Of a stretch of 64,000 nucleotides of DNA, positions 3,184-24,402 are shown in pieces. Every line of letters starts with the position of its first letter. The first letter of the stretch is position 1. Position numbers and translations under genes: made by a program. Below the pieces are notes generated by a model. It did no database searches. It saw only the letters and a program-made list of their open reading frames with translations, and was not told the DNA's origin. This DNA comes from Hyphomicrobium denitrificans ATCC 51888 (lineage in GTDB: Bacteria; Pseudomonadota; Alphaproteobacteria; Rhizobiales; Hyphomicrobiaceae), in NCBI RefSeq assembly GCF_000143145.1, contig NC_014313.1, positions 806,001-870,000 on the forward strand, in the 5' to 3' direction.

Positions 3184-3196
3184 CGTATGCCCGGCC

Positions 3197-6200: not shown

Positions 6201-7067
6201 CTAAGGGTGCATTTTCGCCGGCGACAGACCGTAGTTTGCGAATATGCTCGCGAGCTCTCCGGACTTTCGCAGCTTATCGAGAATTCTGTTCGCCTCTTCG
6301 GCCATCGCTGAATCTGATCGGCGAAATCCGATACCCATGAAATAGCCGTCGCCATTGTTGACAATAGAACCATGAGCTTGCGTGAAAGCCGCGTTTGGAT
6401 GCCGCTTCAGATACCAACCAAGCCCGATATTCGTCACGAAGCCAACATCGACCTCGCCGGAAGTGACAGCATCAAGTACCTCGCCGTCGCGCGTCCGGGC
6501 CACCGAGATGTCAACTGGCCGTTTGAGTAGCGCAGCATGGGGCATCGATCCGCTTTGCACCGCTACACGCAGATGGTCCATATCCTCGATTTTCGATATC
6601 GAGCGACCGGGCTTGGTGACCGCCAGCCACTCGATCCAAAGGATAGGCTCGGTCTTTTTCAGTGGGCTGTCGTCATTCGGAAGGATGCCCACCCCCATGA
6701 AGGCATCACACTCCACATATGCCGCCTGATAGCGCATTTCGATCCACGAGAACTCGACATCGACGGCGAGTTCGCGGCCTAGAGCGCGAGCAAGATCGAC
6801 TTGAAGTCCAGCGGGTTTGCTACCAAGGCCATCGGCAAACGGCATTGAATCCGGATTGGCGCAAACCGTCATCAGGCCGCGCTTTTTCATTTGCGCGAGT
6901 GTAACTGCGTCGGCATGCCCAACCGACGCGATCAACACCATCAGGAATGCGGTTAGCGCCCGCCCTGCTAAAGATGCGATGCCAAATATATCAGTTGTTC
7001 GAATCGCACTCCGGCAGAGTCCTGAGGCTTCGGATATACGCAACGAGTTGCCAGCGTGCCTTTTCAT
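6201..7067 (-). CDS. XoxJ/MoxJ-like periplasmic substrate-binding protein
   Basis: A periplasmic solute-binding fold (SBP family 3-like). Features include a hydrophobic export segment (ALTAFLMVLIASVGHADA), then RGLMTVCANPDSMPFAD, LQVDLARALGRELAV, a DVGFVTNIGLGWYL hinge segment and a C-terminal helix ILDKLRKSGELASIFANYGL. It is the third gene of an order PQQ dehydrogenase, cytochrome c, binding protein, the order of xoxF-xoxG-xoxJ, where J proteins are thought to assist maturation of the dehydrogenase rather than transport. The start is uncertain: the ATG chosen overlaps the cytochrome gene by 77 bases, the ATG at 6941 would leave a very short signal peptide, and ATG 7097 would overlap more. 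Confidence 0.75.
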   Translation of the reverse strand: MKRHAGNSLRISEASGLCRSAIRTTDIFGIASLAGRALTAFLMVLIASVGHADAVTLAQMKKRGLMTVCANPDSMPFADGLGSKPAGLQVDLARALGRELAVDVEFSWIEMRYQAAYVECDAFMGVGILPNDDSPLKKTEPILWIEWLAVTKPGRSISKIEDMDHLRVAVQSGSMPHAALLKRPVDISVARTRDGEVLDAVTSGEVDVGFVTNIGLGWYLKRHPNAAFTQAHGSIVNNGDGYFMGIGFRRSDSAMAEEANRILDKLRKSGELASIFANYGLSPAKMHP

Positions 7068-7407
7068 CGAAGGTATCCTTCCACGGCGGCATGACATTTG
7101 CGCCGTTAATACGGCCGTTAGTGATGGTTTCGAAGATGTAATCGGGCTTCATGTCCCGGCACTGTAGTGCCCTGGCGCTGCCGCCACTTCCTTTGCTGCC
7201 GTGGCAGTAGACGCAATTCTGATAGAATGTGGCTTCCCCCGTCTTGATTGCTGCAGGATCGCCGAGGGCGGCCTCGCCGCCGCCGTTGGCAGTACCTGCC
7301 GCGGCCATGACAGACGCCATCATCGCGAATAGGGTGATGATGGCCGAGACACCGCAGGCGATAATCACTTGTGCCTTGTAACTCAGCACAAAATCTTTCT
7401 TGATCAC
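6991..7407 (-). CDS. Small c-type cytochrome, XoxG-like partner of the PQQ dehydrogenase
   Basis: A 138-residue exported monoheme cytochrome c. A hydrophobic N-terminal segment (VIIACGVSAIITLFAMMASVMAAAG) acts as signal or anchor. The heme motif is CVYCH at about residue 66, and a Met ligand is likely in NVMPPWKDTF near 114. C-terminal YIRSLRTLPEC is typical of class I cytochromes. It lies 75 bases after the PQQ dehydrogenase gene on the same strand, so it is the probable electron acceptor from PQQ in the periplasm. Short XoxG-type cytochromes are usual partners of lanthanide-dependent dehydrogenases. Confidence 0.85.
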   Translation of the reverse strand: MIKKDFVLSYKAQVIIACGVSAIITLFAMMASVMAAAGTANGGGEAALGDPAAIKTGEATFYQNCVYCHGSKGSGGSARALQCRDMKPDYIFETITNGRINGANVMPPWKDTFDEKARWQLVAYIRSLRTLPECDSNN

Positions 7408-7482: not shown

Positions 7483-9162
7483 TTACTCGAGCGTCAGCGC
7501 AATAAGTGCGGCACCGCCAGGGAGACCTTTGATCTTCGGGAAAGCGCTGGCCATGAAGCCGGGAGCGTGCGATCCGAGCCCACTCGGCACAAGGATATAC
7601 TGCTTGCCGCCAGCCGCGTAGCTCACAGGGCCCGAGCGAATTCCTGAGCCCGTATTGAAGTTCCACAGCTCTTTGCCCGTTTCAGCGTCGTAGGCGTGAA
7701 AAACGCCTCTGACGTCGCCGTTGAAAACGAGACCGCCGGCCGTGGACAGAACACTTCCAAGTCCTGGCATTTCATAGTCCACCGACCATTTGACTTTGCC
7801 GGTAATCGGATCGCGCGCATCGAGCCGTGCCGAAGCCTTATCGCCCGGGGGCGGCACGGCCTCAAGCTTCGATACGCCCAGGTAAAGACCTGCAAGTCCT
7901 ACCTTGTCGATCTCCTGCGGAGAGGAGTTGATCGTATTGCAAACCTCCATCGCATTTGTGTACCAGAGCCCAGTCTTCGGGCTGTATGAAGCGGCATTCC
8001 AGCTGCGGACACCGAGCAGGTATGGGCACATGACCCGCTCTTCTCCGACCTTCGGCTCATAGCGATCTTTGATCTCTCCGGTCTTTGGATCGATTCCCGA
8101 TGTCCAGTTGATATGTTTCGCGAGCGGCCAGATGTTGAACGGCTTGCCCGTCGCCTTATCGAGCACGAAGACGTAGCCGCCTTTGTTGAGGTGGACGAGG
8201 AGATCTTTGCCGTCGTGCTTGATTGACATAATTTCGTAGGCGGAATCGTAATCCCACGTATCGTGCGGCACTTCTTGATAATGCCACTTGAGATTTCCGG
8301 TCTTACCTTCGATGGCCAGGATCGTCGCGGAATAAAGGTTGTCGCCGACACGACCGTCAGGGAAGAAGTCGGGAGCCGCGTTGCTGGTGCCGATTAGGAT
8401 GGTATCGGTCTTGGCATCATAGACGCCAGGCATCCAGGCGCCGCCGCCGCCGACCTTGCCGCTGTCGCCGGGCCAGCTTTTGGGATCGTCTTTAATTGTG
8501 TTGAAGGTCCACGCAGGCTCGCCAGTCAGAGCATTAACGGCAAAGATTTTGCCGGCCTGCGGTTGGTCTCCACCGGTCGTTCCGCCGTAGAGGATGTCGC
8601 CAGCCAACTGCGGCGGCGATGAGAACAGACATCCATAGCAGGTCTTCAGATCGGTGATCTGACGTTCCCACACGACCTTTCCGGTCTTTTGGTCAAGGGC
8701 GATGTAGCGTCCGTCGAGAGAGCCCAAATACACCATGCCGTGGCCGACGGTGACGCCACGAGTCGCGGCGACGTAGAACACCTTGGTTACGATGGGATCG
8801 AGTTCGGGTTTGTAGTGCCAAAGGGTCTTGCCGGTCTCGCCGTCGACGGCGAAGACATTGTTATTGGCGCCGACGTAGTAGACGATGCCATCGATCACGA
8901 TGGGCGTTGCCTGCAGGCCCATCTGAATGTCGCCAGGCTGATGAATCCAGGCCACCTTCAACTTTTTGACATTGCCGGTGTTGATCTGATCGAGCGGGCT
9001 GTAGCGCCACGCGTCGTCGGTGCGATAATATTTCGGCCAATCGTTTGGAGAGTCTTCAGCGAAACTTGGCTGTGGAACCATCGTGGTCGTCAGAGCCGCG
9101 AACGCCGCGGCGGCCATTATTGGAAATGTTATGCGTGAGCGCTTGCGTCGACTGACTGCCAT
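7483..9162 (-). CDS. PQQ-dependent alcohol dehydrogenase 1, lanthanide-type active site
   Basis: A 559-residue periplasmic quinoprotein: signal peptide to about residue 35 (cleavage near PSFA-ED), then an eight-bladed propeller with repeated W-motifs (GKTLWHY, GKVVWER, GEPAWTF, GKELWNF). The active site reads PHDTWDYDSAYE: catalytic Asp304 plus Asp306, the extra Asp that marks lanthanide-dependent XoxF/PedH-type enzymes. Asn261 matches the metal Asn; Asp199 stands where Glu is usual. The adjacent-Cys pair that forms the ring over PQQ is absent (VFYVAATRG at about 128-136); a separate CYGC lies at 175-178. The start at 9162 has AGGGGAG upstream; an earlier in-frame ATG (9243) is excluded because a sigma54 promoter lies between them. 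Alcohol or diol substrate is likely; methanol cannot be assumed. Confidence 0.88.
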   Translation of the reverse strand: MAVSRRKRSRITFPIMAAAAFAALTTTMVPQPSFAEDSPNDWPKYYRTDDAWRYSPLDQINTGNVKKLKVAWIHQPGDIQMGLQATPIVIDGIVYYVGANNNVFAVDGETGKTLWHYKPELDPIVTKVFYVAATRGVTVGHGMVYLGSLDGRYIALDQKTGKVVWERQITDLKTCYGCLFSSPPQLAGDILYGGTTGGDQPQAGKIFAVNALTGEPAWTFNTIKDDPKSWPGDSGKVGGGGAWMPGVYDAKTDTILIGTSNAAPDFFPDGRVGDNLYSATILAIEGKTGNLKWHYQEVPHDTWDYDSAYEIMSIKHDGKDLLVHLNKGGYVFVLDKATGKPFNIWPLAKHINWTSGIDPKTGEIKDRYEPKVGEERVMCPYLLGVRSWNAASYSPKTGLWYTNAMEVCNTINSSPQEIDKVGLAGLYLGVSKLEAVPPPGDKASARLDARDPITGKVKWSVDYEMPGLGSVLSTAGGLVFNGDVRGVFHAYDAETGKELWNFNTGSGIRSGPVSYAAGGKQYILVPSGLGSHAPGFMASAFPKIKGLPGGAALIALTLE

Positions 9163-9220: not shown

Positions 9221-9236
9221 CGCAAGTTGCGTGCCA
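9221..9236 (-). promoter_or_regulatory. Sigma54 (-24/-12) promoter for PQQ dehydrogenase 1
   Basis: Read on the minus strand the element is TGGCAC-GCAAC-TTGC, a full match to TGGCAC-N5-TTGC with canonical GG-to-GC spacing of 12. The predicted start of transcription is near 9210, 48 bases before the ATG at 9162. It lies downstream of the alternative start at 9243, which decides the shorter protein. Confidence 0.8.
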
Positions 9237-9377
9237 TGATCAAAGTCTTTGATTCTCATTGACTTGCGATACGCCACGACCGGTGTGATAGGGGCGCCGC
9301 GCCACACGTGATGCGCACGAAAAGCGGCTTGGCCGCCTGGTTTGCATCGTGGAACGGGTGGTCATGATCCCTCACGA

Positions 9378-9397
9378 GTTGCGCCGAACCACGCAAC
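9378..9397. promoter_or_regulatory. Putative AcoR-type upstream activating sequence (shared operator)
   Basis: Inverted repeat GTTGCG-N8-CGCAAC between the divergent PQQ dehydrogenase 1 and acoA promoters: 77 bases upstream of the acoA -24 element and about 140 from the other. An identical half-site pair with the same 8-base spacer occurs at 24487-24506 before PQQ dehydrogenase 2. Binding by AcoR is inferred from position and recurrence. Confidence 0.65.
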
Positions 9398-9474
9398 ACT
9401 CTGATCGCCACAGGTGTAGCGTTCCGCGCCCAGCCGGATACCTCAAATGGCCTGATATCCTTGGCTTTTCGTAA

Positions 9475-9490
9475 CGGCACGACAATTGCT
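9475..9490 (+). promoter_or_regulatory. Sigma54 (-24/-12) promoter for acoABC
   Basis: CGGCACG-ACAA-TTGCT matches the TGGCACG-N4-TTGCW consensus in all but the first base, with correct GG/GC spacing. Transcription would begin near 9501, 26 bases before acoA. The acoA ribosome site GGGAGGA lies at 9518-9524. Confidence 0.8.
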
Positions 9491-9526: not shown

Positions 9527-10492
9527 ATGCAGCACAGTCGAGAATTCCTGCTCGATTGCTATCGGAGCATGGTGACAATCCGCGCGTTCGAAGAGCGCGT
9601 GCATGATGAATTTGCCGCCGGCAAAATTCCAGGCTTCGTTCATCTCTACGCAGGAGAGGAAGCCTCCGCAGTCGGCATCTGCTCGCATCTCGATAATCGC
9701 GACGCGATTGCCTCAACCCATCGTGGTCATGGTCACTGCATCGCCAAGGGGTGTGATGTTGGTGAGATGATGAAGGAGATCTACGGCAAGCGGGGCGGAT
9801 CTTGCGGTGGCAAGGGCGGCTCGATGCATATCGCCGATCTTTCAAAAGGCATGCTCGGTGCCAATGGCATCGTCGGCGGGGGGCCGCCGCTCGTTTGCGG
9901 TGCTGCATTGACGGCAAAATACCTCAAGACAGGCGGAGTGGCCGTCGCCTTCGGCGGCGATGGCGCTTCGAACCAGGGTACGACGCTCGAATCTTTCAAT
10001 CTCGCCAAGGTGTGGGATTTGCCCGTCGTCTTCGTCGTCGAGGACAACGGCTATGCCGAGGCAACGTCAAGCTCCTGGTCGGTCGCCGGATCGCAACTTG
10101 GTCGGGCCGCTGGATTTGGAATGCCTGGCGTTCAGGTTGACGGCACGGACTTCTTCGCCGTTCACGATGCTGCACGTACGGCGATCGAGCGGGCTCGCAA
10201 CGGTGGCGGTCCGTCGCTGCTGCACGTGAAGCTGATGCGCATCTTCGGACACTTCGAAGGCGACGCGATGACCTATCGCGCCGAAGGAGAAGTGAAAAAG
10301 CTGCGTGAAGATCACGACTGTTTGAAAATTTTCCGCAGGAGGGTCACGGAAGCGAGCCTCCTCGATGATTCTACCCTCGATGCGATCGAGGCGAACGTCG
10401 CACGCTCGATCGACGAAGCTGTCTCGGCAGCAGAAGCTGATTTGCCGCCCAGCGAGGCCGATCTGCTCACTGATGTCTACGTCCGGTATTGA
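9527..10492 (+). CDS. acoA: Acetoin dehydrogenase E1 component, alpha subunit
   Basis: A 321-residue TPP-dependent E1 alpha subunit. The TPP-binding motif runs from GGDGASNQG to VEDNGYAEA, about residues 143-175, and AGEEASAVG and HRGHGHCIAKG are also typical of the E1 alpha family. With AcoB it cleaves acetoin, passing the acetyl group to the lipoyl arm of AcoC and releasing acetaldehyde. It is the first gene of acoABC, 12 bases before acoB, behind a sigma54 promoter. Pyruvate dehydrogenase E1 alpha is the alternative; the hydrolase-fold AcoC and the nearby acoR make acetoin dehydrogenase the better call. Confidence 0.88.
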   Translation: MQHSREFLLDCYRSMVTIRAFEERVHDEFAAGKIPGFVHLYAGEEASAVGICSHLDNRDAIASTHRGHGHCIAKGCDVGEMMKEIYGKRGGSCGGKGGSMHIADLSKGMLGANGIVGGGPPLVCGAALTAKYLKTGGVAVAFGGDGASNQGTTLESFNLAKVWDLPVVFVVEDNGYAEATSSSWSVAGSQLGRAAGFGMPGVQVDGTDFFAVHDAARTAIERARNGGGPSLLHVKLMRIFGHFEGDAMTYRAEGEVKKLREDHDCLKIFRRRVTEASLLDDSTLDAIEANVARSIDEAVSAAEADLPPSEADLLTDVYVRY

Positions 10493-10504: not shown

Positions 10505-11521
10505 ATGCCAAAGAAAACATACAGACAAGTAATCAATGAAGCGATTGCGAGTGAAATGCGGCGTGACAGCCGCGTGGTCGCCATCGGCACGGACATCGCG
10601 GGCGGCAAAGGATCGCCCGGAGAAGAAGATGCGTGGGGCGGCGTGCTCGGCGTAACGAAGGGGCTTTATGGGGAGTTCGGACCGGAGCGAGTCCTCGATA
10701 CGCCGATCACCGAAAGCGCCTTCATAGGAGCATCGGTTGGCGCGGCAGCCACCGGGCTTCGGCCGGTTGCCGAACTGATGTTCGTCGACTTCATGGGCGT
10801 CTGCTTTGACCAGATTTTCAATCAGGCCGCAAAATTCCGCTATATGTTCGGTGGCAAGGCGGTAACGCCAATCGTCATCCGCACGATGTACGGTGGCGGC
10901 TTCCGGGCCGCATCTCAGCACAGCCAGTGCCTGTATCCACTTTTCACTCACATACCCGGCCTCAAGGTCGTTATTCCGTCATCACCCTATGAAGCCAAGG
11001 GCCTGCTGATCGAAGCGATCCGCGACAACGATCCGGTCATATTCTTTGAGCACAAGGTTCTTTACGACATCGAAGAAGATGTGCCGGATGAGGCCTATAC
11101 GATCCCATTCGGCGAAGCGAACATCACGCGTGAGGGGCGGGATGTGACGGTCGTTGCCTTTGGCCGTATGGTCAGCTTTGCCAATACCGCCGCGGATGAA
11201 CTCAAACGCGAGGGTATTTCGGTGACTGTCATCGATCCGCGTACAACCTCGCCGCTTGATACGGAGACAATCCTCGAAAGTGTTTCCGCGACCGGGCGCC
11301 TTGTGGTCGTAGACGAAGCACATCCACGTTGCTCGATGGCTGCCGATATTGCGCGTCTCGTTGCTGAAGAGGGGTTCAAAGACCTGAGGGCACCGATCCG
11401 CACGGTGACGCCGCCGCATACGCCCGTGCCGTTCTCGCCGACGCTCGAGGACATCTATATCCCGAGCGTTGCAAGAATAAAGGACGTTGTGCGCTCGATC
11501 GCGGCGAAGGTGTCGGCATGA
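10505..11521 (+). CDS. acoB: Acetoin dehydrogenase E1 component, beta subunit
   Basis: A 338-residue E1 beta subunit of the 2-oxoacid/acetoin dehydrogenase family. Signatures are ALxSEMRRDSRVVAIGTDIAGGKG-like N-terminus, RVLDTPITESAFIGASVGAA near residue 60, and a C-terminal transketolase-like domain (VTVIDPRTTSPLDTETI near 240). It pairs with AcoA to form the TPP-containing acetoin-cleaving heterotetramer. The last four bases overlap the start of acoC (ATGA), so B and C are translationally coupled. Confidence 0.88.
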   Translation: MPKKTYRQVINEAIASEMRRDSRVVAIGTDIAGGKGSPGEEDAWGGVLGVTKGLYGEFGPERVLDTPITESAFIGASVGAAATGLRPVAELMFVDFMGVCFDQIFNQAAKFRYMFGGKAVTPIVIRTMYGGGFRAASQHSQCLYPLFTHIPGLKVVIPSSPYEAKGLLIEAIRDNDPVIFFEHKVLYDIEEDVPDEAYTIPFGEANITREGRDVTVVAFGRMVSFANTAADELKREGISVTVIDPRTTSPLDTETILESVSATGRLVVVDEAHPRCSMAADIARLVAEEGFKDLRAPIRTVTPPHTPVPFSPTLEDIYIPSVARIKDVVRSIAAKVSA

Positions 11522-12645
11522 GCGACATTCAACCGATTGTCATGCCGAAATGGGGACTAGCCATGGCGGAGGGCACGCTCGTCGGCTGGTCCGTCGGCGA
11601 GGGCTCCGACATTCAAAAAGGCGACGAAATAGCAGAAATCGAAACGACGAAAATCACGAACGTGTTCGAGAGTCCGGTTTCCGGCGTTTTGCGGCGCCAG
11701 ATCACGAAAGGCGGCGAAATTGTTCCTGTGGGAGCGCTGTTGGCCGTGCTGGCGCCATCGACGGTTAGTGATGCCGAGATCGATGCCTTCATTGGAGCTT
11801 TTGTCGTCGAAAGCGCAGACGACAACGGCTCCAAAGTCGTCGAGCGCGAGGCTCATTTGGACGGCCGCAACATTTTCTACAAGTTTAGTGGAAGTGCGGA
11901 GGACGGCATTCCTGCCGTCCTCATCCACGGCTTTGGAGGGGATGCGGACAATTGGCTCTTCAATATCGAGTCTCTTTCGGCATCCCGGCCCGTCTATGCA
12001 CTCGATCTGCCTGGCCACGGCAAATCGACCAAGACAGTCGTAAAGGGAGATCTCGATGAATTGGCTGATGCCGTCATCGCGGTCCTCGACGATGCCGGAG
12101 TCGCGAAGGCACATCTTGTCGGTCACTCGCTTGGCGGCGCCGTCGCCTTCAAGGTGCTCGACAAGGCCCCAACCCGCGTAGCGTCGGTCGCCGGCGTTGC
12201 GCCTGCCGGGCTCGGCGAGGGGGTCAATGACGCCTATATTCGAGGTTTTATCTCCGCCGAGAAGCGAAAGGATGTGAAATCCGCATTGCAAATGCTAGTC
12301 GCGGATCCCGAACAGGTATCGGCGACGATGATCGAAGGTATCCAGCGCTACAAGAGACTCGAAGGGGTTAAGGAAGCCATCGAAACCATCGCCGCAAAGA
12401 CGATGCCGCAAGGACGGCAAGCCGTCTCGTTCCGCAGTTTGGTGGAGAAGACCGACAAGCCCGTGCTGGTCGTTTGGGGCGAAAAGGACGCCATCATCGA
12501 TCCGCGACATTCCGAAGGCGTGGCGAGTACGGTGTCTGTCGTTCGCCTGCCGTCGGTTGGCCATATGCCCCACTTGGAAGCGGCCAAGACGTTCAATGCG
12601 CAGGTAGCCAAACATTTCGAAAATGCGGAGGCTAAGTCGCGCTAA
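11518..12645 (+). CDS. acoC: Acetoin dehydrogenase E2, lipoyl domain fused to alpha/beta hydrolase
   Basis: A 375-residue protein. Residues 1-80 are a lipoyl domain with the modified lysine in EIETTKITNVFES (Lys near 44). After a short linker, residues about 125-370 form an alpha/beta-hydrolase fold with nucleophile motif GHSLGG near 203 and a C-terminal VGHMPHLE His. This lipoyl-hydrolase arrangement, without the classical E2 catalytic core and E3-binding domain, is characteristic of AcoC and separates this cluster from pyruvate dehydrogenase. It transfers the acetyl group to CoA. The operon ends here with a strong terminator. Confidence 0.88.
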   Translation: MSDIQPIVMPKWGLAMAEGTLVGWSVGEGSDIQKGDEIAEIETTKITNVFESPVSGVLRRQITKGGEIVPVGALLAVLAPSTVSDAEIDAFIGAFVVESADDNGSKVVEREAHLDGRNIFYKFSGSAEDGIPAVLIHGFGGDADNWLFNIESLSASRPVYALDLPGHGKSTKTVVKGDLDELADAVIAVLDDAGVAKAHLVGHSLGGAVAFKVLDKAPTRVASVAGVAPAGLGEGVNDAYIRGFISAEKRKDVKSALQMLVADPEQVSATMIEGIQRYKRLEGVKEAIETIAAKTMPQGRQAVSFRSLVEKTDKPVLVVWGEKDAIIDPRHSEGVASTVSVVRLPSVGHMPHLEAAKTFNAQVAKHFENAEAKSR

Positions 12646-12723: not shown

Positions 12724-14661
12724 CTATTCCACGCACTGGTTCGGTGCGACGATGCCGAAACGCTTCATGCGGCGATGGATCGTCGTCCGGTCGACATTGA
12801 GATCTCGAGCTACTTGCGTGACGTTCCAATGACGCCGTGCGAGGTGCGTGCGCAAGGAAGCGGCTTCAGAATCGACAGGGCTGTCATCGGTCTGCGATCT
12901 CTCCATAGGGCGCATGGAAATGCCAAGCACCGAGCTTGGGAGATCATCGATAGACACAACCCCCTTGCTGCAGACGGCCAGCGCGAAATCGAGAACGTTC
13001 TTCAACTCTCGAACATTGCCTGGCCAACGGTACCGGTAAAGGGCGCTTGCCGCTTCGGGGGTCAAGACCGGTGGTGCAGTTGGACAACGCAGCCTGATCA
13101 AGCGTTCGATGAGCCATTCGATGTCCGACCTGTCCCGGAGCGCTGGAAGGATCAGTTCGAATCCGTTCAAGCGGTAATATAGATCTTCGCGGAATTGTCC
13201 GGTCTTGATCATCGCGGTGAGATTGCGGTGAGTTGCGGCAATGACGCGAACGTCGAGCTTAATCGGCCGCGTCGCACCGACAGGGATGATTTCACGCTCC
13301 GCCAGAACACGCAGCAGGCGGGTTTGCAGCATGAGCGGCATGTCTCCGATCTCGTCGAGAAACAGCGTGCCACCATTGGCTTGTGCAACTAAGCCTTGTT
13401 TTCCCTTGGATTGAGCGCCGGTGAAAGCTCCGGCCTCGTAGCCAAAAAGCTCGCTTTCAATCAGGCTCTCCGGGAAGGCAGCGCAATTGATTGCGACGAA
13501 CTCTTTGTGAGACCGGGCGCTCGAGTCGTGGACCGCTCTGGCGAAATATTCCTTGCCGGTGCCAGTCTCACCTTGAATGAGCAGACTGATGGGCGCATCG
13601 GCGAGTTTTGCGGCGCGTTCCAGTACAGTGACAACGGCCGGATCGCCCTTGGTGAAGTTCGCAAGCGGTTCCGGCATCTTTGGCATCGACGTGCTGGCAG
13701 GTCCTCTGACGCTGACGGTCGGAGGAATGGCTTGCAGAAAGAGAATGGTGCCACTGTGCTTTAATTTTATCGTCGCCCGTGGGTGAGACAAGCGCGCGAA
13801 GTTGCCTAGTTTTTCGAGCGTACAATCGAATACATCCTCGAAGGCGCGCCCTTTGAGGTCCCCGCCTTTGACTGGAGCGAGACCAAACTCATGCCGAAGC
13901 AATAAGGCTGTCCGGTTATTGAAACCCGTTATCAACCCATCCTCGTCGAGGGCGAGCACATATTCCGGGTCAACGCAGAGGAATTCTGGTGAGCTCGAGA
14001 ACTTCAGTATCCAGTTGCGGTTGAAGTGATTGAACAGCGTCGCATTCTCAACCTGATGCGCGCAATGGGTGACAAGAGCGAGAGCAAGATGCTGGCTCTG
14101 CTTTTCCTCGGGCGAGCGAAGCGCGGAAATATCGAGAACTGCCGCTATCTGTCCTTGCGGGTCGAAGATCGGAACGGCCGTACAGGTGAGATTGATATGG
14201 TTCGCGCTGAAGTGGTCGCCCTGATGGACGATCAATCCTTTGCCATTTGCGATGCAAGTGCCGACACCATTGGTACCAGCCAAGCTTTCGCTCCATTCCG
14301 CACCGAGGTACAAGCCCGCATGCCGTAGTTCAGTCTCGAAAGCGGGGTCGCCGATGAAGTCGATCGTTATCCCTTGCGCATCGGTGAGGAGGATCGTGTA
14401 ACCGAGACCAGCGATCTGCCGATGGAGCGTTTCGAGTCCAAACCGCGCTGTGCGTAGGATGTCCTCCATGCGCTGCTGGCGCTCCCTGAGCTGCGCGCTT
14501 GTGTGGACGTAGACTTCAGGTGCCGTGACGGGATTAAGTTGATGCTCCTGAATGCAACGCCGCCAGGAATCGGTAATGATTGAATCATAGTTGGTTGTGT
14601 CGCCTTCCGTTGCCTTGATGACGTCGGCGACGTGCGCATTGCGGTTGTTTTGGCCAATCAT
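12724..14661 (-). CDS. acoR: Sigma54-dependent acetoin catabolism regulator AcoR
   Basis: A 645-residue enhancer-binding protein. An N-terminal GAF-like sensor (about 60-220) is followed by a PAS-like segment, then an AAA+ domain with Walker A GETGTGKE, the sigma54-contact loop GAFTGA, and Walker B GGTLFLDEIGD. A C-terminal Fis-type helix-turn-helix carries HWNVTQVARDLNVDRTTIHRRM. AcoR proteins activate acetoin genes from sigma54 promoters in response to acetoin. Here it is convergent with acoABC and downstream of thiG. ATG 14661 is preferred; a GTG at 14724 would add 21 residues and includes a tandem repeat. Its predicted targets are the -24/-12 promoters at 9221, 9475 and 24387. Confidence 0.88.
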   Translation of the reverse strand: MIGQNNRNAHVADVIKATEGDTTNYDSIITDSWRRCIQEHQLNPVTAPEVYVHTSAQLRERQQRMEDILRTARFGLETLHRQIAGLGYTILLTDAQGITIDFIGDPAFETELRHAGLYLGAEWSESLAGTNGVGTCIANGKGLIVHQGDHFSANHINLTCTAVPIFDPQGQIAAVLDISALRSPEEKQSQHLALALVTHCAHQVENATLFNHFNRNWILKFSSSPEFLCVDPEYVLALDEDGLITGFNNRTALLLRHEFGLAPVKGGDLKGRAFEDVFDCTLEKLGNFARLSHPRATIKLKHSGTILFLQAIPPTVSVRGPASTSMPKMPEPLANFTKGDPAVVTVLERAAKLADAPISLLIQGETGTGKEYFARAVHDSSARSHKEFVAINCAAFPESLIESELFGYEAGAFTGAQSKGKQGLVAQANGGTLFLDEIGDMPLMLQTRLLRVLAEREIIPVGATRPIKLDVRVIAATHRNLTAMIKTGQFREDLYYRLNGFELILPALRDRSDIEWLIERLIRLRCPTAPPVLTPEAASALYRYRWPGNVRELKNVLDFALAVCSKGVVSIDDLPSSVLGISMRPMERSQTDDSPVDSEAASLRTHLARRHWNVTQVARDLNVDRTTIHRRMKRFGIVAPNQCVE

Positions 14662-14675
14662 TGGGCGTTTCCGTT

Positions 14676-14701
14676 GATCTCTTGCTTGGATCTCTTGCTT
14701 G
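14676..14701. repeat. Tandem 13-bp repeat upstream of acoR
   Basis: GATCTCTTGCTTG occurs twice head to tail without a gap, between the GTG (14724) and ATG (14661) start candidates of acoR. A recent duplication is likely, and being 13 bases (not a multiple of three) a change of copy number would break the longer reading frame. This favours the ATG start. Confidence 0.7.
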
Positions 14702-14834
14702 TGCGGGTTAATCGCAACTGGCACTGCACGGATTATTGATGATGGGCAAGTTCAGTCAACTTAATCTTGTGAGCACTTGATCGACATCTCGCAATCGCGA
14801 AGATGAGTTGAAGGGTCAGCCGACCTAATCTTGT

Positions 14835-15608
14835 TTAATCAAGGATGGGTTTTCCGGCGATCGGTGTCGATGGGGAGGCCATGTCGCGTGGAGGCAACGC
14901 CCCAGCCAAATAACCTAGCCTTCCGGATACCACGGCTTTTGAGAACGCTTCGGCCATCATGACTGGATCGGCCGCTTTCGCGACGGCGGTGTTCAAGAGG
15001 ATGCCGTCGCACCCCAACTCCATCGCTTGGGCGGCATGCGAAGGTACGCCAAGGCCAGCATCGACAATGATTGGCACGTCGGGAAAATGCGAACGTAATG
15101 TCCTCAGGCCGTAGACATTGTTCAGTCCGCGAGCTGATCCGATCGGCGCGCCCCACGGCATGAGCACGCGGCATCCAGCTGCGAGCAAACGGTCCGCGAC
15201 GCGGAGGTCTTCCGTCATGTATGGAAAAACTTTGAAACCCTCGTTTGAAAGGATCCGCGCCGCTTCGACCAGTCCAAAAACGTCCGGCTGCAACGTGTCG
15301 TCGTCTCCGATCACCTCAAGTTTAATCCAGTCCGTCTGGAACAGCTCGCGCGCCATTTGGGCAGTCGTAACCGCCTCTTTAACGCTATGACAGCCGGCCG
15401 TATTGGGCAGGAGAGGGCGCTTCAATCCTTCGAGGAATTTCCAGAATCGTTGCGACGTGCCGCTGCCGCCTGCCGTCTCACGCCGCAGCGAAACCGTCAC
15501 GACGGATGCATCCGCAGCTGCTATGGCCTCCGCCATGATCGCAGGGGAGGGATAGAGCGCCGTGCCAAGCATAAGCCTCGTTGGCAGTTCGACATCATAG
15601 AGGACCAT
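14835..15608 (-). CDS. thiG: Thiazole synthase ThiG
   Basis: A 257-residue (beta/alpha)8 enzyme that assembles the thiamine thiazole phosphate from deoxyxylulose phosphate, dehydroglycine and ThiS-thiocarboxylate. Signatures are [12 protein letters not shown] at the start, LPNTAGC near residue 68, [16 protein letters not shown] near 93, [12 protein letters not shown] near 150, and [19 protein letters not shown] near 178. The Lys of WIKLEV is the Schiff-base lysine of the family. It starts 3 bases after thiS and is upstream of acoR on the same strand. Finding it inside an acetoin gene cluster suggests TPP supply to AcoAB. Confidence 0.92.
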
Positions 15609-15611
15609 TGT

Positions 15612-15809
15612 TCACCCGCCCTGACGCGCTGTGACGATCTCGATCGCATCGCCCTGTCTGAGGATCTCCTTGTGGCGCTGTACAGCCGTGACGAACTTGC
15701 CGTTCAATGCGGTCGCGATCGACGAGGGGTTGTGCCCTCGCTCTTCGACGAGTTCCAAAAGCGTTGCTGCATTGGTCGCGAAGGATGTGCCGTTAATGAC
15801 GACCAGCAT
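15612..15809 (-). CDS. thiS: Sulfur carrier protein ThiS
   Basis: A 65-residue ubiquitin-like protein ending in the required Gly-Gly (TARQGG), which is thiocarboxylated and donates sulfur to ThiG. The N-terminus MLVVINGTSF and the ALNGKFV segment are typical. The stop is 3 bases before the thiG start. The oxidase gene thiO and thiE, often adjacent in Hyphomicrobiales thi operons, are not present here. Confidence 0.9.
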   Translation of the reverse strand: MLVVINGTSFATNAATLLELVEERGHNPSSIATALNGKFVTAVQRHKEILRQGDAIEIVTARQGG

Positions 15810-16054
15810 GATGCGCTTCCCCGGCCGAACGGCCTATTTTTGCAAGTAGCTTTGAGATCGTTGCGCGATCAGTCGCCGGTCATCCTCGCTTGCAGGATGG
15901 ATTGGCAGCGTCAGGGTCGGCGTCGCCGAAATCATTGCATCGGGCATCGACAAGACTATCGCACCGGGGCAGGTGGGCCGCTGATTGCGGTCGTCTTTTG
16001 CCGTCGCAGCATCAAGCGCGTTGCCACCCGTGGACATCTGTATGTCGCTCCACG
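15810..16054 (-). other. 245-base gap between E3 and thiS; weak 67-codon frame
   Basis: A frame at 15834-16037 (minus) starts with ATG and has 67 codons, ending SQSYLQK. Its composition is not clearly protein-like apart from the last third, and there is no recognised domain. It may be a decayed remnant of a gene once lying between the E3 gene and thiS. No promoter or terminator was recognised. Confidence 0.25.
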
Positions 16055-17521
16055 TTACAAATGCAGCGCCGCCATATCCGCTGAGAGTGCGCTCTCGAAT
16101 ATGGCCTCGGACAAGGTCGGATGCGGGAAGACGGTGTGCCGGAAATTGTCCACGGTGGCATTCATCTCGAGCGCCATGGCGAACGTGCCGATGAGTTCGG
16201 TTACCTCGCCGCCGATGAGCTGAGCTCCAAGGAGTCGCTTTGTGTTCGCGTCAAATACCGTTTTGACGAGGCCTTCGGTTTCGCCGATAGCGATGGCTTT
16301 GCCGTTTGCGCGAAACGGGAAGCGTCCAACGAGTATCTCGGTTTCAGATTTCCGCGCCTGCGCTTCCGTGATGCCCACGCTGGCGATTTGCGGATGACAA
16401 AAAATGCACGACGGGATTTTTGTGTTGTCCAACGGGCTGACCGGTAACCCCTTGATTGCCTCAACACAGATCACGCCTTGATGCTCTGCCTTGTGGGCCA
16501 GCATTGGCGGTCCGGCGACATCGCCAATCGCGTAGATGCCAGGAATATTCGTCCGACCGACGTTGTCGACTTTGATGTATCCTGGCCCATCTTCGAGAGC
16601 CACCGCGAGATCGCTGAGACCGAGCCCCGACGTGTTGGCGACGACCCCAACGGCGGAAATCAGGCGCTCTGCTTTCAGCGTTGAGCGGTCGCCTGCAAGC
16701 GTCTCGATGGTAAGGGAGACTTCGTCGGTTGAAGTCGCTTCTGCTCCGACGACCTTGACGCCGGTGAGGATATTCATGCCCTGCTTCTGAAATTGCCGGC
16801 GCGCGATCTGTGCAATCTCCGCATCCTCCATCGGAAGGATCTGGTGCAGCGCTTCGATCAGGGTAACGTTAGCTCCGAGGGTCCGGTAAATACTCGCAAA
16901 CTCGACCCCGATTGCTCCCGACCCGACCACGATGACCGATCGTGGGAGTTCCGGTGGCACCATCGCCTCGCAATAGGTCCAGATGCGCTTACCATCCGGA
17001 GTGAGTCCCGGCAGCACTCGAGGCTGTGCTCCGGTCGCGATAATGATGTGCTTCGCCCGATACCGGCCGGCCGCGAGGACCCCTTTTGGCGGTGCATGCT
17101 GAGGCTGCCGCGGCGAGTGACTTGGAGGGCGAACGGTGACTTCTCCGTATCCGGCGCCGGGCGCGCTTTCGATTGCCGCCTCTCCCCAGATGATCGCAAT
17201 GTTGTTTTTGGCGAGCAGATAGTCGACGCCGCCATTGAGCTGCTTCGATACCGTCCGCGAGCGCGTGACGATGCGCTGTAGATCTGGCTCGGGAGTACCG
17301 CTGCGTAGTCCGAATTCAGCGGCTCCGCGCCCGTGCTTCAGAATCTCCGCGGACCGCAGTAGCGCCTTTGATGGGATGCAACCCCAGTTAAGACAGATGC
17401 CACCCAGATGTTCTCTTTCGACGATGGCAGTTTTGAACCCGAGCTGAGCAGCGCGGATTGCTGTTACGTACCCGCCTGGGCCTGATCCAATGACTAGGAT
17501 ATCGAAAGTCGTGTCTGTCAT
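16055..17521 (-). CDS. lpdA: Dihydrolipoamide dehydrogenase (E3 of the acetoin dehydrogenase complex)
   Basis: A 488-residue flavoprotein disulfide reductase. FAD motif GSGPGGYVTAIRAAQLG at residues 10-26, redox-active GGICLNWGCIPSK at about 40-53, NAD-binding VVGSGAIGVEFASIYRTLGA, second FAD segment GIYAIGDVAG, and the C-terminal His/Glu pair in HTVFPHPTLSE. It reoxidises the lipoyl groups of AcoC with NAD+. An insert rich in Pro/His/Ser at about 125-150 (RPPSHSPRQPQHAPP) resembles the one in other alphaproteobacterial E3s. ATG 17521 (MTDTTFDIL) fits the family start; ATG 17533 is equally possible. First gene of a likely lpdA-thiS-thiG-acoR unit. Confidence 0.88.
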   Translation of the reverse strand: MTDTTFDILVIGSGPGGYVTAIRAAQLGFKTAIVEREHLGGICLNWGCIPSKALLRSAEILKHGRGAAEFGLRSGTPEPDLQRIVTRSRTVSKQLNGGVDYLLAKNNIAIIWGEAAIESAPGAGYGEVTVRPPSHSPRQPQHAPPKGVLAAGRYRAKHIIIATGAQPRVLPGLTPDGKRIWTYCEAMVPPELPRSVIVVGSGAIGVEFASIYRTLGANVTLIEALHQILPMEDAEIAQIARRQFQKQGMNILTGVKVVGAEATSTDEVSLTIETLAGDRSTLKAERLISAVGVVANTSGLGLSDLAVALEDGPGYIKVDNVGRTNIPGIYAIGDVAGPPMLAHKAEHQGVICVEAIKGLPVSPLDNTKIPSCIFCHPQIASVGITEAQARKSETEILVGRFPFRANGKAIAIGETEGLVKTVFDANTKRLLGAQLIGGEVTELIGTFAMALEMNATVDNFRHTVFPHPTLSEAIFESALSADMAALHL

Positions 17522-17667
17522 GCGGGTGATCATTCCGTGTATTGGCCGATGAATGATGTCATCGGGTTCGCTGCTCGCGATGTCGTCCTCTTGCAACGCT
17601 GTTAAAAAGATGACGGCGACGCGCTCCCTGGAACGGGAGATCAGGTCGCGCGCCGCCCTCAAGTTTT

Positions 17668-17882: not shown

Positions 17883-19259
17883 TCAGAAGAAGACGGCTCC
17901 ACCGAGTGCGAAGATGTGAAGGTGTTTCATGTCTTCATTGCCATGGACACCGTCTGCCACGAAGTCGACGTCCGCTCCGTAGTTCTTGTATTTCAGCCAG
18001 AACGCTGCTGATGCAGCGTCGATTTCCTGCACGATGCCGAAACCAAAGCGGTCGAACGTCGAACCCGTCGCTTTGACGTTGTTCGGCCCGGCTGCTCCGC
18101 ATGCCGTATCGATTTTGCCACCCGTTCCTGCGAAGCCATCGCAGACGTCGGTGACGCCGCTAAACACGGCACCGCCAAGAAGTCCCGAGAACATGTCGTT
18201 GTCGTTGCCGTACTCACCGTAGAAGACAGTGGCGCCGAGCTTGTTGAGGCTGGCGCGCACGCCGCCCTTTACATAGAGCTGATCAGTTGGCTTGTAGTCG
18301 CCTTCCGGGTTCTCGTGACCATAGTAGATGCTCCCGAAGAGTCCCGTCGGCTTATGCAACGCCGCAAAACTCGCCTGCGCATAATAGTCCGGCGTAATCG
18401 CATTAATGCGGTGAGCCGTGTTGCGCGCGAAGCCGGCGCCGAACGCCGTCGTCCAGGTCGGCCCATCGTAGTTATGTCTGATAGCAAAATCGTAGTAGTA
18501 AGCTTCGCCATACGACGTCGAAAGCATGAAGCCATTGATAGTCGGCGAGTCATAGCGGATATTGTTCGTTCGATCGCCGCCGCAGTCGGCGAAGATGCCT
18601 ACGCCCGTCGTGTAGCACGTTGCGAGGTCGCCCCATCTGGCCTTCGCTCGTGTCCTGGATCCATTCGGGACGAGTTGAAAGTTCTGGCCGTCGAAGTCGA
18701 CGAGGTTCGCCGCGAATATGCTGCCGGCACCCGAAACGTCGACCCAGACATCGTCCGTTGCCTGGCTCTGCCGTCCGACCGAAACGCGGCCCAAGCGTTC
18801 GCTCTTGACCCACCAATAGGAGTTCAGCGTATCGGGTGGTCCTTCCCCACCGTCGGGGTTATGGGCATCCTGAACGAAACCATTTGCCCCGACGACGTCG
18901 ATCCTCAAACTGTAGCCCGCAGACCATTCGCTGTTGATCTTTGCACTTCCATCAAAGTGAAGGCGGTTGCCGAGATCGTTCAAGCTGGTGCCGACATAGG
19001 CATCTGTCTTCAGCCCATCGCTCCAGCCCATCACCTGCTCCGTGACCCAGCCGGAGATCGTCAGGGAAACCTTTCGATTTCCCTTGGTGGCGGTGGTCGC
19101 TTCGAGTTCAGCGATCCGCTGCTCGAGGTCGGCGCAGCAATCGCCTCCCAGATCGGCGGCTTGGACGCTCATGGAAAATGCGGACGTGCAGGCAAATAGG
19201 GCGGCGCCGAAGAGATAGGGCAGGCCTATTTTTTTTGTTATGCTGTCATTTTTGATCAT
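17883..19259 (-). CDS. Outer-membrane porin, alphaproteobacterial type
   Basis: A 458-residue exported protein: Sec signal peptide (LFGAALFACTSAFSMSVQA-AD), a short coiled coil (CCADLEQRIAELEATTA), then a 16-strand-type beta-barrel of the Omp2b/porin family (SLTISGWVTEQVMGWSDG, LGRVSVGRQSQATDDV, HIFALGGAVFF) ending in the C-terminal Phe required for BamA insertion. It lies beside the acetoin/alcohol genes, and a sigma54-like element 250 bases upstream suggests it belongs to the same response and lets small organic substrates in. Four extra Cys in the loops could form disulfides. The pore substrate is not predictable. Confidence 0.85.
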   Translation of the reverse strand: MIKNDSITKKIGLPYLFGAALFACTSAFSMSVQAADLGGDCCADLEQRIAELEATTATKGNRKVSLTISGWVTEQVMGWSDGLKTDAYVGTSLNDLGNRLHFDGSAKINSEWSAGYSLRIDVVGANGFVQDAHNPDGGEGPPDTLNSYWWVKSERLGRVSVGRQSQATDDVWVDVSGAGSIFAANLVDFDGQNFQLVPNGSRTRAKARWGDLATCYTTGVGIFADCGGDRTNNIRYDSPTINGFMLSTSYGEAYYYDFAIRHNYDGPTWTTAFGAGFARNTAHRINAITPDYYAQASFAALHKPTGLFGSIYYGHENPEGDYKPTDQLYVKGGVRASLNKLGATVFYGEYGNDNDMFSGLLGGAVFSGVTDVCDGFAGTGGKIDTACGAAGPNNVKATGSTFDRFGFGIVQEIDAASAAFWLKYKNYGADVDFVADGVHGNEDMKHLHIFALGGAVFF

Positions 19260-19506: not shown

Positions 19507-19522
19507 AGCAATCGGCATGCCA
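19507..19522 (-). promoter_or_regulatory. Sigma54-like promoter for the porin
   Basis: Minus strand TGGCATG-CCGA-TTGCT: one mismatch to TGGCACG-N4-TTGCW with correct spacing. Transcription would start near 19496, giving a 5' leader of about 237 bases before the porin ATG at 19259. The long leader lowers confidence. Confidence 0.5.
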
Positions 19523-19832: not shown

Positions 19833-19855
19833 TGCAACACCTGTTGAATGCAACA
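19833..19855. promoter_or_regulatory. CAACA/TGTTG inverted repeats, possible activator site for thiC
   Basis: TGCAACA-CC-TGTTG overlaps TGTTG-AATG-CAACA. The 2-base spacing CAACA-N2-TGTTG is the same as in the GCGCAACA-AG-TGTTGCGC element at 24499-24516. It lies 100 bases upstream of the -24/-12-like element at 19955. Weaker match to the GTTGCG-N8-CGCAAC operators. Confidence 0.35.
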
Positions 19856-19954
19856 GCTGTCGCACGCCTCGTTGTGCTCGGAAATCAAAGTGAATGGCGA
19901 CTTCGCGCGAGGGGAAAACAAAGCCGCTCCTGCCGCCAACCTATGAGGAAATCT

Positions 19955-21984
<2,030 letters not shown>

Positions 21985-22008: not shown

Positions 22009-22070
22009 AGCGCATCCTTCAGCCCATCCCGTGGGGGGCGGCTTATGGGTTGGGGATGCGCTTCTTCTTT
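22009..22070 (+). terminator. Stem-loop terminator after thiC, overlapping the end of the convergent cytochrome gene
   Basis: AGCGCATCC / GGATGCGCT (9 bp) with inner pairing GCCCAT / ATGGGT, followed by TCTTCTTT. The 3' arm also encodes the last residues of the convergent cytochrome c. Confidence 0.6.
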
Positions 22071-22483
22071 CCCTTCTGGAGGGCTTGAGTCCGAGCTTCG
22101 GCACGCAGGTAGGCCATGACCTCCCAAATTTCATCTGTGGTCAACGTGCCTTCGAAGCTTCCCATGATCGTGCCCGGGCGGCCGCCGAGAATGACGCCAA
22201 AGATGATCTCGTCATCGGCTCCACCATTTGGTCTGAACATGCCTTTGACCAGATTTGGCGCCCGCGCACCCATGCCATTGGCTCCATGGCAAAAGAGACA
22301 CGTATTGCTGTAGATGCTCTTCCCTTTCTCGATCGCATCAGGCTTGCCTTCGAAGGGATTGATGCCTGTCTGCGTCGTGGTGGTCGCTGACGTTTCCGAA
22401 TCTTCGGCATTAGCGTGGAAAGCGACGGCTGCGATTGCCAGTACGGCGGCAGCGCATGCAAGAACCTTCGGCGCAAAAACCAT
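22043..22483 (-). CDS. c-type cytochrome, partner of PQQ dehydrogenase 2
   Basis: A 146-residue exported monoheme cytochrome c. Signal peptide ACAAAVLAIAAVAFHANA-ED, heme motif CLFCH at about residue 62, a Met ligand in PGTIMGSFEG near 106, and a basic C-terminal tail (KGKKKRIPNP). It is 85 bases downstream of the PQQ dehydrogenase 2 gene on the same strand and is its probable electron acceptor. It is different in sequence from the cytochrome of the first operon, so the two dehydrogenases seem to have separate partners. Confidence 0.85.
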   Translation of the reverse strand: MVFAPKVLACAAAVLAIAAVAFHANAEDSETSATTTTQTGINPFEGKPDAIEKGKSIYSNTCLFCHGANGMGARAPNLVKGMFRPNGGADDEIIFGVILGGRPGTIMGSFEGTLTTDEIWEVMAYLRAEARTQALQKGKKKRIPNP

Positions 22484-22568: not shown

Positions 22569-24302
22569 CTATTTCTTCTTGTGCAGAGCGAAGACGAACA
22601 TGCTGCCACCCTGCTGACGAGTCTTCAGCCAGTCGCCGTAGACGAGTGGCCAGATGCTCCCGCCGCCCGGACCGGCGAGGATCGCGACGTACTGCGTATC
22701 GCCAACCATGAAAGTCGTCGGATTGGAGTGGATACCAGTCCCCACATTGAACTCCCAAAGAGTTTCACCTGTGTCGTCCTTGATGGCGCGGAATACACCT
22801 TCCGCATCGCCGTTGAAGATCAGGCCGCCAGCGGTTGATAGGATGCCCCCCGTCGCTGGTGTATTCTGACGCCGCGCCCATGCGAGTTCCCCGGTCGTCG
22901 CGTCGAACGCCTTCACATACCCACCGCCCGGATTCAGTTTGAGCACGTCCGTTGCGAGATACCATTCGCCCGGTTTGAACTCCTGCTTCTTGGCGGCAAG
23001 ATCCATCGACATGTCACGGCCAGGCACGTATACGAAGCCCGTCCGTTTGCTATAGGAAGCGGGAACCCATTCCTTGCCTCCGTCGAGCACCGGCGCGATA
23101 TCCTTGGTCACCTTGCCGTATGTCGGTACTTTCTCCGGGTCGACGATAGGACGGCAATTTTCGCCCCAGCTTTTGACCCAGTTCACGCGGGACATAGGCA
23201 CCACCCAGTTGCATTTGTAGGTGCTGCGGTCGATTGAGTAGAGATGCCCGTTACGATCAGCGTGCACCCAGACCTTGCGGCCCTCTTTGTCCGTGATCAC
23301 GATAGCTTCGTTGGTGCCATCGTAGTCGTACGTGTCGTGCGGCGTGTACTGAAAGTGCCCCTTGATCTCGCCGGTCTTGATGTCGATAGCGATTGTTGAT
23401 GCTGTGTAGAGGTTGTCGCCGGGTCGAACGCTGCCGTCGAAATCAGGCACTGGGTTTCCAACACCCCAAAGAAGCAGCCCGGTCTCTTTATCAAAGGATC
23501 CTGGCAGCCACGGTGTGCCGCCTGCCGTCTTCCAAGATCCGTTGCCCCACGTCTTGGCGATATCTTCCTTGCCGGTGACCGGCACGGTATAGGTTTTCCA
23601 AGCAGGCGCTCCCGTTTCGGCATCAACTGCATAGATCGTACCCGCGTTGGCGCCGACATCCCCTCCCGAGTTTCCAATCATAATCTTCCCATCGGCCACA
23701 ACGGGCATCGAGGTGAAGATTTCGCCGGTCTTGTAGTCGCCGAGCTTTTGATCCCAAACGACTTCGCCGGTGTCATTGTCCAGCGCAATCAGATGTGTGT
23801 CTAATGTCGCGAGATAGACTTTGTCCTCGTATGCGATGACACCGCGGTTCACGTCGCCACAGCACAGCTTCGGACCGAGATCAGCCGGAAGCGGGTGGTC
23901 GTAACGCCAAAGCTCCCTGCCGGTTGCTCCGTCGATTGCAAAAACCTTGTTCTGGCTCGACGACACATAGAGACGACCATTGACGGCTGTGACCTGCGAA
24001 TCCTGCGCGCCGATAACACCGAACGAAAGGCTCCATTTGGCTACGAGGTCGCCGACGTTGTTCGCGGTGATCTGGTTGAGCGGCGAATAGCGCGTGCTTT
24101 CGTAGTCGCGTCCGTACATCAGCCAGTTATTGGGATCCTTATCTGCATTGAGCAGCATATCCTCGGTGACGTAATACTGGACATGCTTGCCTTCGAGTGT
24201 CTTGACGCCCAGATCAGATAATGCCGGTCCGGCGCCGAGTGCCAGTGTCAGTGCCAGAGTAAACACTGACGCGCCAGCTCCAAGGACGTGACAACCCTTC
24301 AT
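22569..24302 (-). CDS. PQQ-dependent alcohol dehydrogenase 2, lanthanide-type active site
   Basis: A 577-residue periplasmic quinoprotein with signal peptide (LALTLALGAGPALS-D) and propeller W-motifs (GRELWRY, GEVVWDQ, GAPAWKT, GELAWAR, GETLWEF). Adjacent Cys147-Cys148 (KLCCGDVNRG) give the ring-forming disulfide. Active site PHDTYDYDGTNE: catalytic Asp326 and Asp328, the second being the lanthanide-associated Asp. Asn283 matches the metal Asn; Asp215 of GNSGGD replaces the usual Glu. ATG 24302 follows GGGAGGAATTTG; a TTG codon lies just before it. A sigma54 promoter and activator-like repeats precede it, the same arrangement as acoA, so it probably oxidises an alcohol or diol feeding acetoin/acetaldehyde metabolism. 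Confidence 0.88.
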   Translation of the reverse strand: MKGCHVLGAGASVFTLALTLALGAGPALSDLGVKTLEGKHVQYYVTEDMLLNADKDPNNWLMYGRDYESTRYSPLNQITANNVGDLVAKWSLSFGVIGAQDSQVTAVNGRLYVSSSQNKVFAIDGATGRELWRYDHPLPADLGPKLCCGDVNRGVIAYEDKVYLATLDTHLIALDNDTGEVVWDQKLGDYKTGEIFTSMPVVADGKIMIGNSGGDVGANAGTIYAVDAETGAPAWKTYTVPVTGKEDIAKTWGNGSWKTAGGTPWLPGSFDKETGLLLWGVGNPVPDFDGSVRPGDNLYTASTIAIDIKTGEIKGHFQYTPHDTYDYDGTNEAIVITDKEGRKVWVHADRNGHLYSIDRSTYKCNWVVPMSRVNWVKSWGENCRPIVDPEKVPTYGKVTKDIAPVLDGGKEWVPASYSKRTGFVYVPGRDMSMDLAAKKQEFKPGEWYLATDVLKLNPGGGYVKAFDATTGELAWARRQNTPATGGILSTAGGLIFNGDAEGVFRAIKDDTGETLWEFNVGTGIHSNPTTFMVGDTQYVAILAGPGGGSIWPLVYGDWLKTRQQGGSMFVFALHKKK

Positions 24303-24386: not shown

Positions 24387-24402
24387 CGCAAGGAATGTGC
24401 CA
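24387..24402 (-). promoter_or_regulatory. Sigma54 (-24/-12) promoter for PQQ dehydrogenase 2
   Basis: Minus strand TGGCAC-ATTCC-TTGCG: full match to TGGCAC-N5-TTGC with canonical spacing. Transcription would start near 24376, 74 bases before the ATG. Confidence 0.8.

Follow-up and report, generated by a model that had tools for sequence, protein, structure and literature searches.

AcoR-activated σ54 operons for acetoin breakdown include acoABCL of Bacillus subtilis and acoXABC of Cupriavidus and Pseudomonas. The locus described here resembles them in its GAF-AAA+-Fis activator, its σ54 promoter and its acoABC target. Unlike in those operons, the genes under control here appear to extend to thiC, a porin-like gene and PQQ dehydrogenase genes in divergent orientation, and no acoX was noticed in the cluster. 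Control by σ54 is reportedly shared by a quinoprotein alcohol dehydrogenase of Azospirillum brasilense, going by the title of a 2017 study by Singh in J Bacteriol; that title names a LuxR-type regulator and no acetoin genes. According to the accessible sections of a study on Pseudomonas putida, PedE and PedH oxidise (2S,3S)-2,3-butanediol to acetoin, which acetoin dehydrogenase cleaves, and the aco operon (PP0553-PP0556) might, in its authors' view, be regulated by AcoR (PMC8427195). This route has in common with our cluster the sequence from PQQ dehydrogenase through acetoin to acetoin dehydrogenase, with acoR beside aco. As these sections describe it, however, pedE and pedH (PP2674, PP2679) are governed by a lanthanide switch, whereas here a PQQ dehydrogenase gene and acoABC share one intergenic region. 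BmoR of Thauera butanivorans is described in the accessible part of another paper as an alcohol-responsive σ54 activator with an inverted-repeat upstream site (PMC8899819). In this it is comparable to the AcoR proposed below; its target, an alkane monooxygenase promoter, is unlike our cluster. For Clostridiales, an AcoR-specific motif is reported to have been derived (PMC6615313). In the literature as partially surveyed, AcoR-σ54 acetoin operons and σ54 control of some alcohol dehydrogenases are already known. The same survey, whose partial coverage does not prove absence, showed neither a proteobacterial AcoR site of the form GCRACA-NN-TGTYGC nor a joint PQQ-aco-thiC regulon.

The window analysed is a stretch of 64,000 nucleotides from Hyphomicrobium denitrificans ATCC 51888, and the genome searched is one contig of 3,638,969 bases (3.64 Mb). 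The features of the cluster are collected in the table.

Table. Features of the PQQ-aco-thiC cluster (positions in the window; operator means GCRACA-NN-TGTYGC, with distances measured from the operator centre to the -24; L005, syntenic Hyphomicrobium locus; G013, genome of the same genus)
Feature	Position	Strand	Sequence	Remarks
Periplasmic solute-binding protein	6201..7097	-		weak MoxJ-type quinoprotein-associated match, TIGR03871 below curated cut-off
Cytochrome c	6991..7407	-		PF13442
PQQ-dependent dehydrogenase 1 (PQQ1)	7483..9162	-		559 aa; has the DxD (lanthanide-type) Asp but no vicinal Cys pair
σ54 -24/-12 element of PQQ1	9221..9236	-	TGGCACGCAACTTGCG (9236-9221)	exact to TGGCAYRNNNNTTGC; L005 equivalent TGGCATGGAGCTTGCC
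Putative operator	9301..9314		GCCACACGTGATGC	2 mismatches; 71 bp from PQQ1 -24
GTTGCG-N8-CGCAAC palindrome	9378..9397		GTTGCGCCGAACCACGCAAC	right arm overlaps conserved half-site GCAACA (9393-9398)
Putative operator	9407..9420		GCCACAGGTGTAGC	2 mismatches; 61 bp from acoA -24
σ54 -24/-12 element of acoABC	9475..9490	+	CGGCACGACAATTGCT	L005 has CGGCACGGCAATTGCT; conserved run AACGGCACG
acoA, E1 alpha	9527..10492	+		PF00676 above cut-off; no NCBIfam model above cut-off
acoB, E1 beta	10505..11521	+
acoC, acetoin dehydrogenase E2	11518..12645	+		NF011457, 459 bits vs cut-off 307
acoR, GAF-AAA+(GAFTGA)-Fis-HTH activator	12724..14724	-
thiG	14835..15608	-
thiS	15618..15812	-
Dihydrolipoyl dehydrogenase (E3)	16055..17662	-		TIGR01350 match begins at residue 53
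Porin-like protein, conserved	17883..19259	-		name by eye only; 85% identical in G013
σ54 -24/-12 element of porin-like gene	19507..19522	-	TGGCATGCCGATTGCT	G013 has TGGCATGCCCCTTGCT
Putative operator	19834..19847		GCAACACCTGTTGA	1 mismatch; 114 bp from thiC -24
Putative operator	19850..19863		GCAACAGCTGTCGC	98 bp from thiC -24
σ54 -24/-12 element of thiC	19955..19970	+	TGGCGTAAGCCTTGCA	1 mismatch; G013 has TGGCGCAGGCCTTGCA
thiC	20053..21984	+
Cytochrome c	22043..22483	-
PQQ-dependent dehydrogenase 2 (PQQ2)	22569..24302	-		DxD and CC present
σ54 -24/-12 element of PQQ2	24387..24402	-	TGGCACATTCCTTGCG	G013 has TGGCACGACAATTGCT
Putative operator	24478..24491		GCACCAACTGTTGC	1 mismatch; 82 bp from PQQ2 -24
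Putative operator	24502..24515		GCAACAAGTGTTGC	genome's only exact GCAACANNTGTTGC; 106 bp from PQQ2 -24; G013 GCGACAAGTGTTGC

PQQ1 contains the PQQ propeller PF01011 far above its cut-off. Against the methanol/ethanol family model TIGR03075 it scored 438 bits, below the cut-off of 480 bits. Its closest PDB entry is 6zcv, a quinoprotein ethanol dehydrogenase that we take to be PedH of P. putida. The second Asp of the metal site (DxD) marks lanthanide-dependent quinoprotein enzymes and was present in all 15 aligned PQQ rows. The vicinal Cys-Cys pair usual in such alcohol dehydrogenases was found in the alignment in all four PQQ2-type rows and in none of the 11 PQQ1-type rows. AcoABC is predicted to be an acetoin dehydrogenase complex, based on the AcoC equivalog NF011457. 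At E<=1e-40, acoC occurs in only two of 22 genomes of the genus, and the aco part was therefore probably acquired, or widely lost within the genus. The enhancer-binding protein with a GAFTGA motif that had been noted near the region is indeed encoded there, by acoR. It is the single match of its kind in the genome at E<=1e-80 and adjoins acoABC, as it does in L005, L089, L090 and L169. The E3 gene probably starts further in than annotated here, because its TIGR01350 match does not begin until residue 53. Beside the cluster lie a TMAO-permease-type transporter gene (4090-5844, above the NCBIfam cut-off) and a gene for a glutamate-synthase-domain protein (1799-3130), which suggests methylated-amine metabolism as the role of the genes at 1799-5844.

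The divergent σ54 elements between PQQ1 and acoA were confirmed at the positions given in the table, and both contain the GG-N10-GC core as read from the sequence. The sequence-only reading had described two full-quality elements facing away from each other. Position and orientation hold for both; the quality was slightly overstated, because in the acoA element a C replaces the first T of TGGCAYRNNNNTTGC. Both elements are kept in L005, and the genome encodes one RpoN. The proposed start of PQQ1 at 9162 is also supported, since the ATG there follows AGGGGAG and the alternative TTG at 9243 sits upstream of the promoter. Counting against the regulon proposed below, a σ54 element was absent upstream of four of the 11 readable PQQ1-type genes, window included (L007, L010, L011 and L018; the upstream DNA of L008 is unreadable and lies outside the 11).

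A rival explanation is that the -24/-12 elements match by chance alone, the genes having ordinary promoters. Loose matches are indeed no more common than expected. With up to two mismatches to TGGCACGNNNNTTGCW, 11 were found in the window vs 11.6 expected, and loose σ54 matches in the window thus mean nothing. In the whole genome, up to one mismatch to TGGCAYRNNNNTTGC gave 107 + 79 matches vs 119 + 127 for the reversed control, without global excess. The exact matches behave differently: of the four occurrences of TGGCAYRNNNNTTGC in the genome among the matches listed (exact first), three fall in the window, at 9236, 19522 and 24402, and they are conserved alongside operators in relatives. We therefore regard chance as extremely improbable.

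We next consider the activator site. The GTTGCG-N8-CGCAAC repeat that the sequence-only reading had assigned to both promoters exists as described. It occurs in four exact copies in the genome, two of them upstream of σ54-type elements of PQQ dehydrogenase genes in the window (9378 and 24487) and the other two at loci L001 and L004, and it includes the conserved half-site GCAACA. The left arm, however, is not conserved in L005, where only the right arm is retained within ACGCAACA, and with spacers of N0-16 the palindrome was found 20 times in the genome vs 17 times for the control, which is not above chance. For these two reasons we rejected it as the main operator. In addition, the copy at 24487-24506 is made up of the facing arms of the operators at 24478-24491 and 24502-24515, and may therefore be a by-product of their spacing. 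With better conserved copies of another motif at hand, a single activator site shared by both promoters at 9378-9397 is very improbable. A scan with the half-site TTGCG proved too loose to be of use.

The motif GCRACA-NN-TGTYGC is the better putative operator. It was proposed from a block crowded with sites ~75-115 bp upstream of the PQQ2 -24, containing GCAACAAGTGTTGC, together with the PQQ2 orthologue in G013, where GCGACAAGTGTTGC lies ahead of the σ54 element TGGCACGACAATTGCT. The copies between PQQ1 and acoA, with two mismatches each, are marginal on their own (~4% of shuffles). In the alignment of this intergenic region with L005, 191 of 362 bases are identical (53%), and identical runs of at least nine bases occur only at 9298-9306, 9407-9421 and 9473-9481. 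These runs match one half, the left, of the operator at 9301-9314 (9 bp), the whole 9407-9420 operator (15 bp, the longest conserved intergenic run) and the acoA -24. In L005 the 9407-9420 copy recurs unchanged and equally far from its -24; the 9301-9314 copy has the equivalent GCCACAACTGCTGC there, likewise at an unaltered distance. Two operator pairs are thus aligned between window and L005, a number reached by none of 2000 column shuffles, two of which reached one pair. This pattern argues for two operators, one per promoter, and not for one shared repeat.

Throughout the 3.64 Mb, nine sites match GCAACANNTGTTGC with at most one mismatch. Four of them lie in the window, in two intergenic regions that carry σ54 elements: 19834 and 19850 in the region with the elements 19522/19955, 24478 and 24502 in the one with 24402. 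At least four of nine sites in 1.8% of the genome corresponds by simple arithmetic to P near 1e-5, with the reservation that two of the four helped to form the motif. The same operator and σ54 elements would likely extend the regulon to PQQ2, the porin-like gene and thiC. The porin-like protein had no Pfam or NCBIfam match. Its σ54 element and that of thiC, which ends 83 bp ahead of the thiC start, flank the operator pair 19834-19863. The distance from this pair to the porin-like -24, 319-335 bp, counts against its inclusion. In G013, in a stretch outside the earlier comparisons, the porin-like promoter is exact and the thiC promoter deviates at the same position as in the window; the tandem operator is retained with the same 16-bp spacing, and ~115 and ~131 bp separate its two centres from the -24 of thiC. 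On the minus strand, the porin-like gene is followed by thiS, thiG, E3 and acoR, which may possibly be switched on by read-through. No TPP riboswitch was detected in the window, L096 or L097 with Rfam at gathering scores. In the latter two loci, cofactor genes lie behind σ54 elements with operator, namely lipA in L096 and thiC and thiG in L097; at the edge of L096, the start of a thiC gene was identified by eye. A cobalamin riboswitch is located at 41790-42002 on the minus strand of the window.

On the far side of the strongest operator block, a short-chain dehydrogenase gene (24636-25349) is transcribed away from PQQ2; no σ54 element toward it was found at up to two mismatches. An RND pump gene (25475-28660) and its adaptor gene (28669-29880) adjoin a gene for a TetR-type regulator (30164-30766).

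The 32 loci in which the link between operator and promoter was analyzed surround AcoR-like or PQQ genes. The operator lies 40-200 bp upstream of 12 of 59 σ54-type sites, a count to be read with the fact that the motif was shaped after viewing L087-L090, L093, L094 and L096-L099, which are included, and that only four of the 12 come from L127-L145, the loci fetched once the motif was fixed. For 179 permuted palindromes on the same 59 sites, the mean was 0.2 and the maximum 6, with the highest counts coming from near variants of the motif. The count omits the motif-forming window, L005/L146, L095, L085 and L086, as well as sites with less than 210 bp of DNA ahead of them. Counting against the link, a σ54 element without an operator within two mismatches was found in L099 and in both L087 regions, and in L090, an acoR-acoABC locus, the slice upstream of acoA lacks a σ54 element.

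Strict operator-promoter composites were found in eight of 150 relatives (10 sites), as against none and one for the reversed control in two scans. All eight genomes belong to the 29 that encode an AcoR-like activator at E<=1e-80 (hypergeometric P 8e-7, kinship ignored). Four of the eight (G000, G013, G057 and G068) were used in shaping the motif, and G115 had previously been seen; without the four motif-forming genomes, all four remaining fall among 25 of 146 (~7e-4 by hand). The 10 sites precede seven PQQ dehydrogenase genes, acoX followed by acoABC (G115) and two flavin-monooxygenase-like genes. The latter two directly follow acoR, and one of them was HMM-tested. Counting against the link, a strict composite is present in only eight of these 29 genomes; note that identity is only 33-47% for many of the AcoR-like proteins counted, whose functions may differ.

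A scan across the phylum gave composites in nine of 397 genomes, with one hit for the reversed control. Besides that of our own genome, the eight composites precede three PQQ dehydrogenase genes, one acoA (1.3 kb downstream), one short-chain dehydrogenase gene and, named by eye, one gene of the SnoaL/flavin-monooxygenase type, nifE and flgB. In G501, the operator lies ahead of acoA. An acoR-like gene is in the examined neighbourhood of five of the eight; the contig of G199 stops about 2.5 kb beyond the composite site. The nifE and flgB sites have no acoR near, and both look unrelated, which counts against the link. In G057 and G068, AcoAB-like E1 genes are divergent from another PQQ dehydrogenase gene, each with a σ54 element, and the operator GCGACATGCGTCGC or GCGACAATCGTCGC is 94 or 92 bp away from the -24 on the acoA side. 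A fusion of SnoaL and flavin-monooxygenase is encoded beside acoR, behind a composite, in three genomes (L092, HMM-tested; L091 and L160, by eye) and is a possible further AcoR target.

Co-occurrence of the composites with acoR-like genes suggests that AcoR binds these sites. The σ54 promoters could instead be driven by another activator, for example of the NtrC or NtrX type, with AcoR acting only on acoABC or elsewhere. The genome does contain four more genes with strong σ54-activation domains (E<=4e-51), and four weak matches. However, strict composites among the 150 relatives occur only where there is an AcoR-like activator, and those of the phylum scan often stand beside an acoR-like gene, including the acoR-acoABC loci L089 and L169. 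Control by another activator is thus very improbable.

Taken together, we consider it highly probable from these sequence comparisons that one σ54/AcoR regulon combines alcohol oxidation, acetoin-type cleavage and thiamine supply. Each of the divergent promoters would have its own AcoR-type enhancer site, GCRACA-NN-TGTYGC, upstream of the -24. The GAF domain of AcoR would sense a catabolite (acetoin, probably, or else a ketol or alcohol related to it), and the AcoR oligomer would bind the sites and remodel σ54-RNA polymerase at both promoters. As a result, PQQ1 with cytochrome c and the binding protein on one side, and acoABC on the other, would be switched on, and further pairs of this operator and promoter in the cluster would bring PQQ2, the porin-like gene and thiC under the same control. 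Such a regulon would oxidise an alcohol to acetoin, cleave acetoin and provide AcoAB with the thiamine diphosphate it requires. AcoR binding, inducer, substrate and transcription are what we infer in this model from the sequences, their conservation, their rarity in the genome and their co-occurrence with acoR-like genes. By analogy, 2,3-butanediol is the leading guess for the substrate, because PedE and PedH of P. putida convert the (2S,3S) form to acetoin according to the accessible sections of PMC8427195. The joint control of alcohol oxidation and acetoin cleavage that had been deduced from the sequence is partly supported: it is borne out by the conserved divergent σ54 elements, the adjoining acoR and a common activator logic, and it fails on the single-repeat site. 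The earlier interpretation recognised the right kind of control, chose the wrong main site and drew its scope too narrowly.

A variant compatible with the regulon reading is that PQQ1 and acoABC are co-regulated and serve separate pathways, PQQ1 acting on ethanol or a longer alcohol and AcoR sensing a common aldehyde or ketol. This would agree with two relatives of the order in which genes for ExaC-type acetaldehyde dehydrogenases (L136:7707-9221 and L137:7168-8685) lie behind exact operators and exact σ54 elements. It would also agree with L167 and L168, where PQQ dehydrogenase genes with operator adjoin an acoR-like gene and no acoABC match was found within 19.9 kb. Against it, G057, G068 and G071 each have clusters that contain both PQQ dehydrogenase genes and E1 genes of the AcoAB-like type. 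We hold this variant to be possible, if rather doubtful.

Returning to the single regulon of alcohol oxidation, acetoin-type cleavage and thiamine supply, the prediction is that in some relatives of Hyphomicrobium periplasmic PQQ-dependent alcohol oxidation, acetoin-type cleavage and thiamine supply form one switch. GCRACA-NN-TGTYGC provides a testable candidate operator for AcoR-like activators that can be recognised in other bacteria as well, and unannotated PQQ dehydrogenases could gain a regulator and a likely pathway from sequence alone. We lean slightly towards a wider view, in which this motif would be the enhancer site of AcoR-like activators across Pseudomonadota and would mark a transferable alcohol-to-ketol regulon, with thiC under a catabolic activator and not a TPP riboswitch. 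If true, this regulon would comprise PQQ dehydrogenases, acetoin-type dehydrogenases, acetaldehyde dehydrogenase and genes for the cofactors thiamine and lipoate. With thiC under such an activator, cofactor synthesis would thus be induced together with the enzyme that consumes the cofactor.
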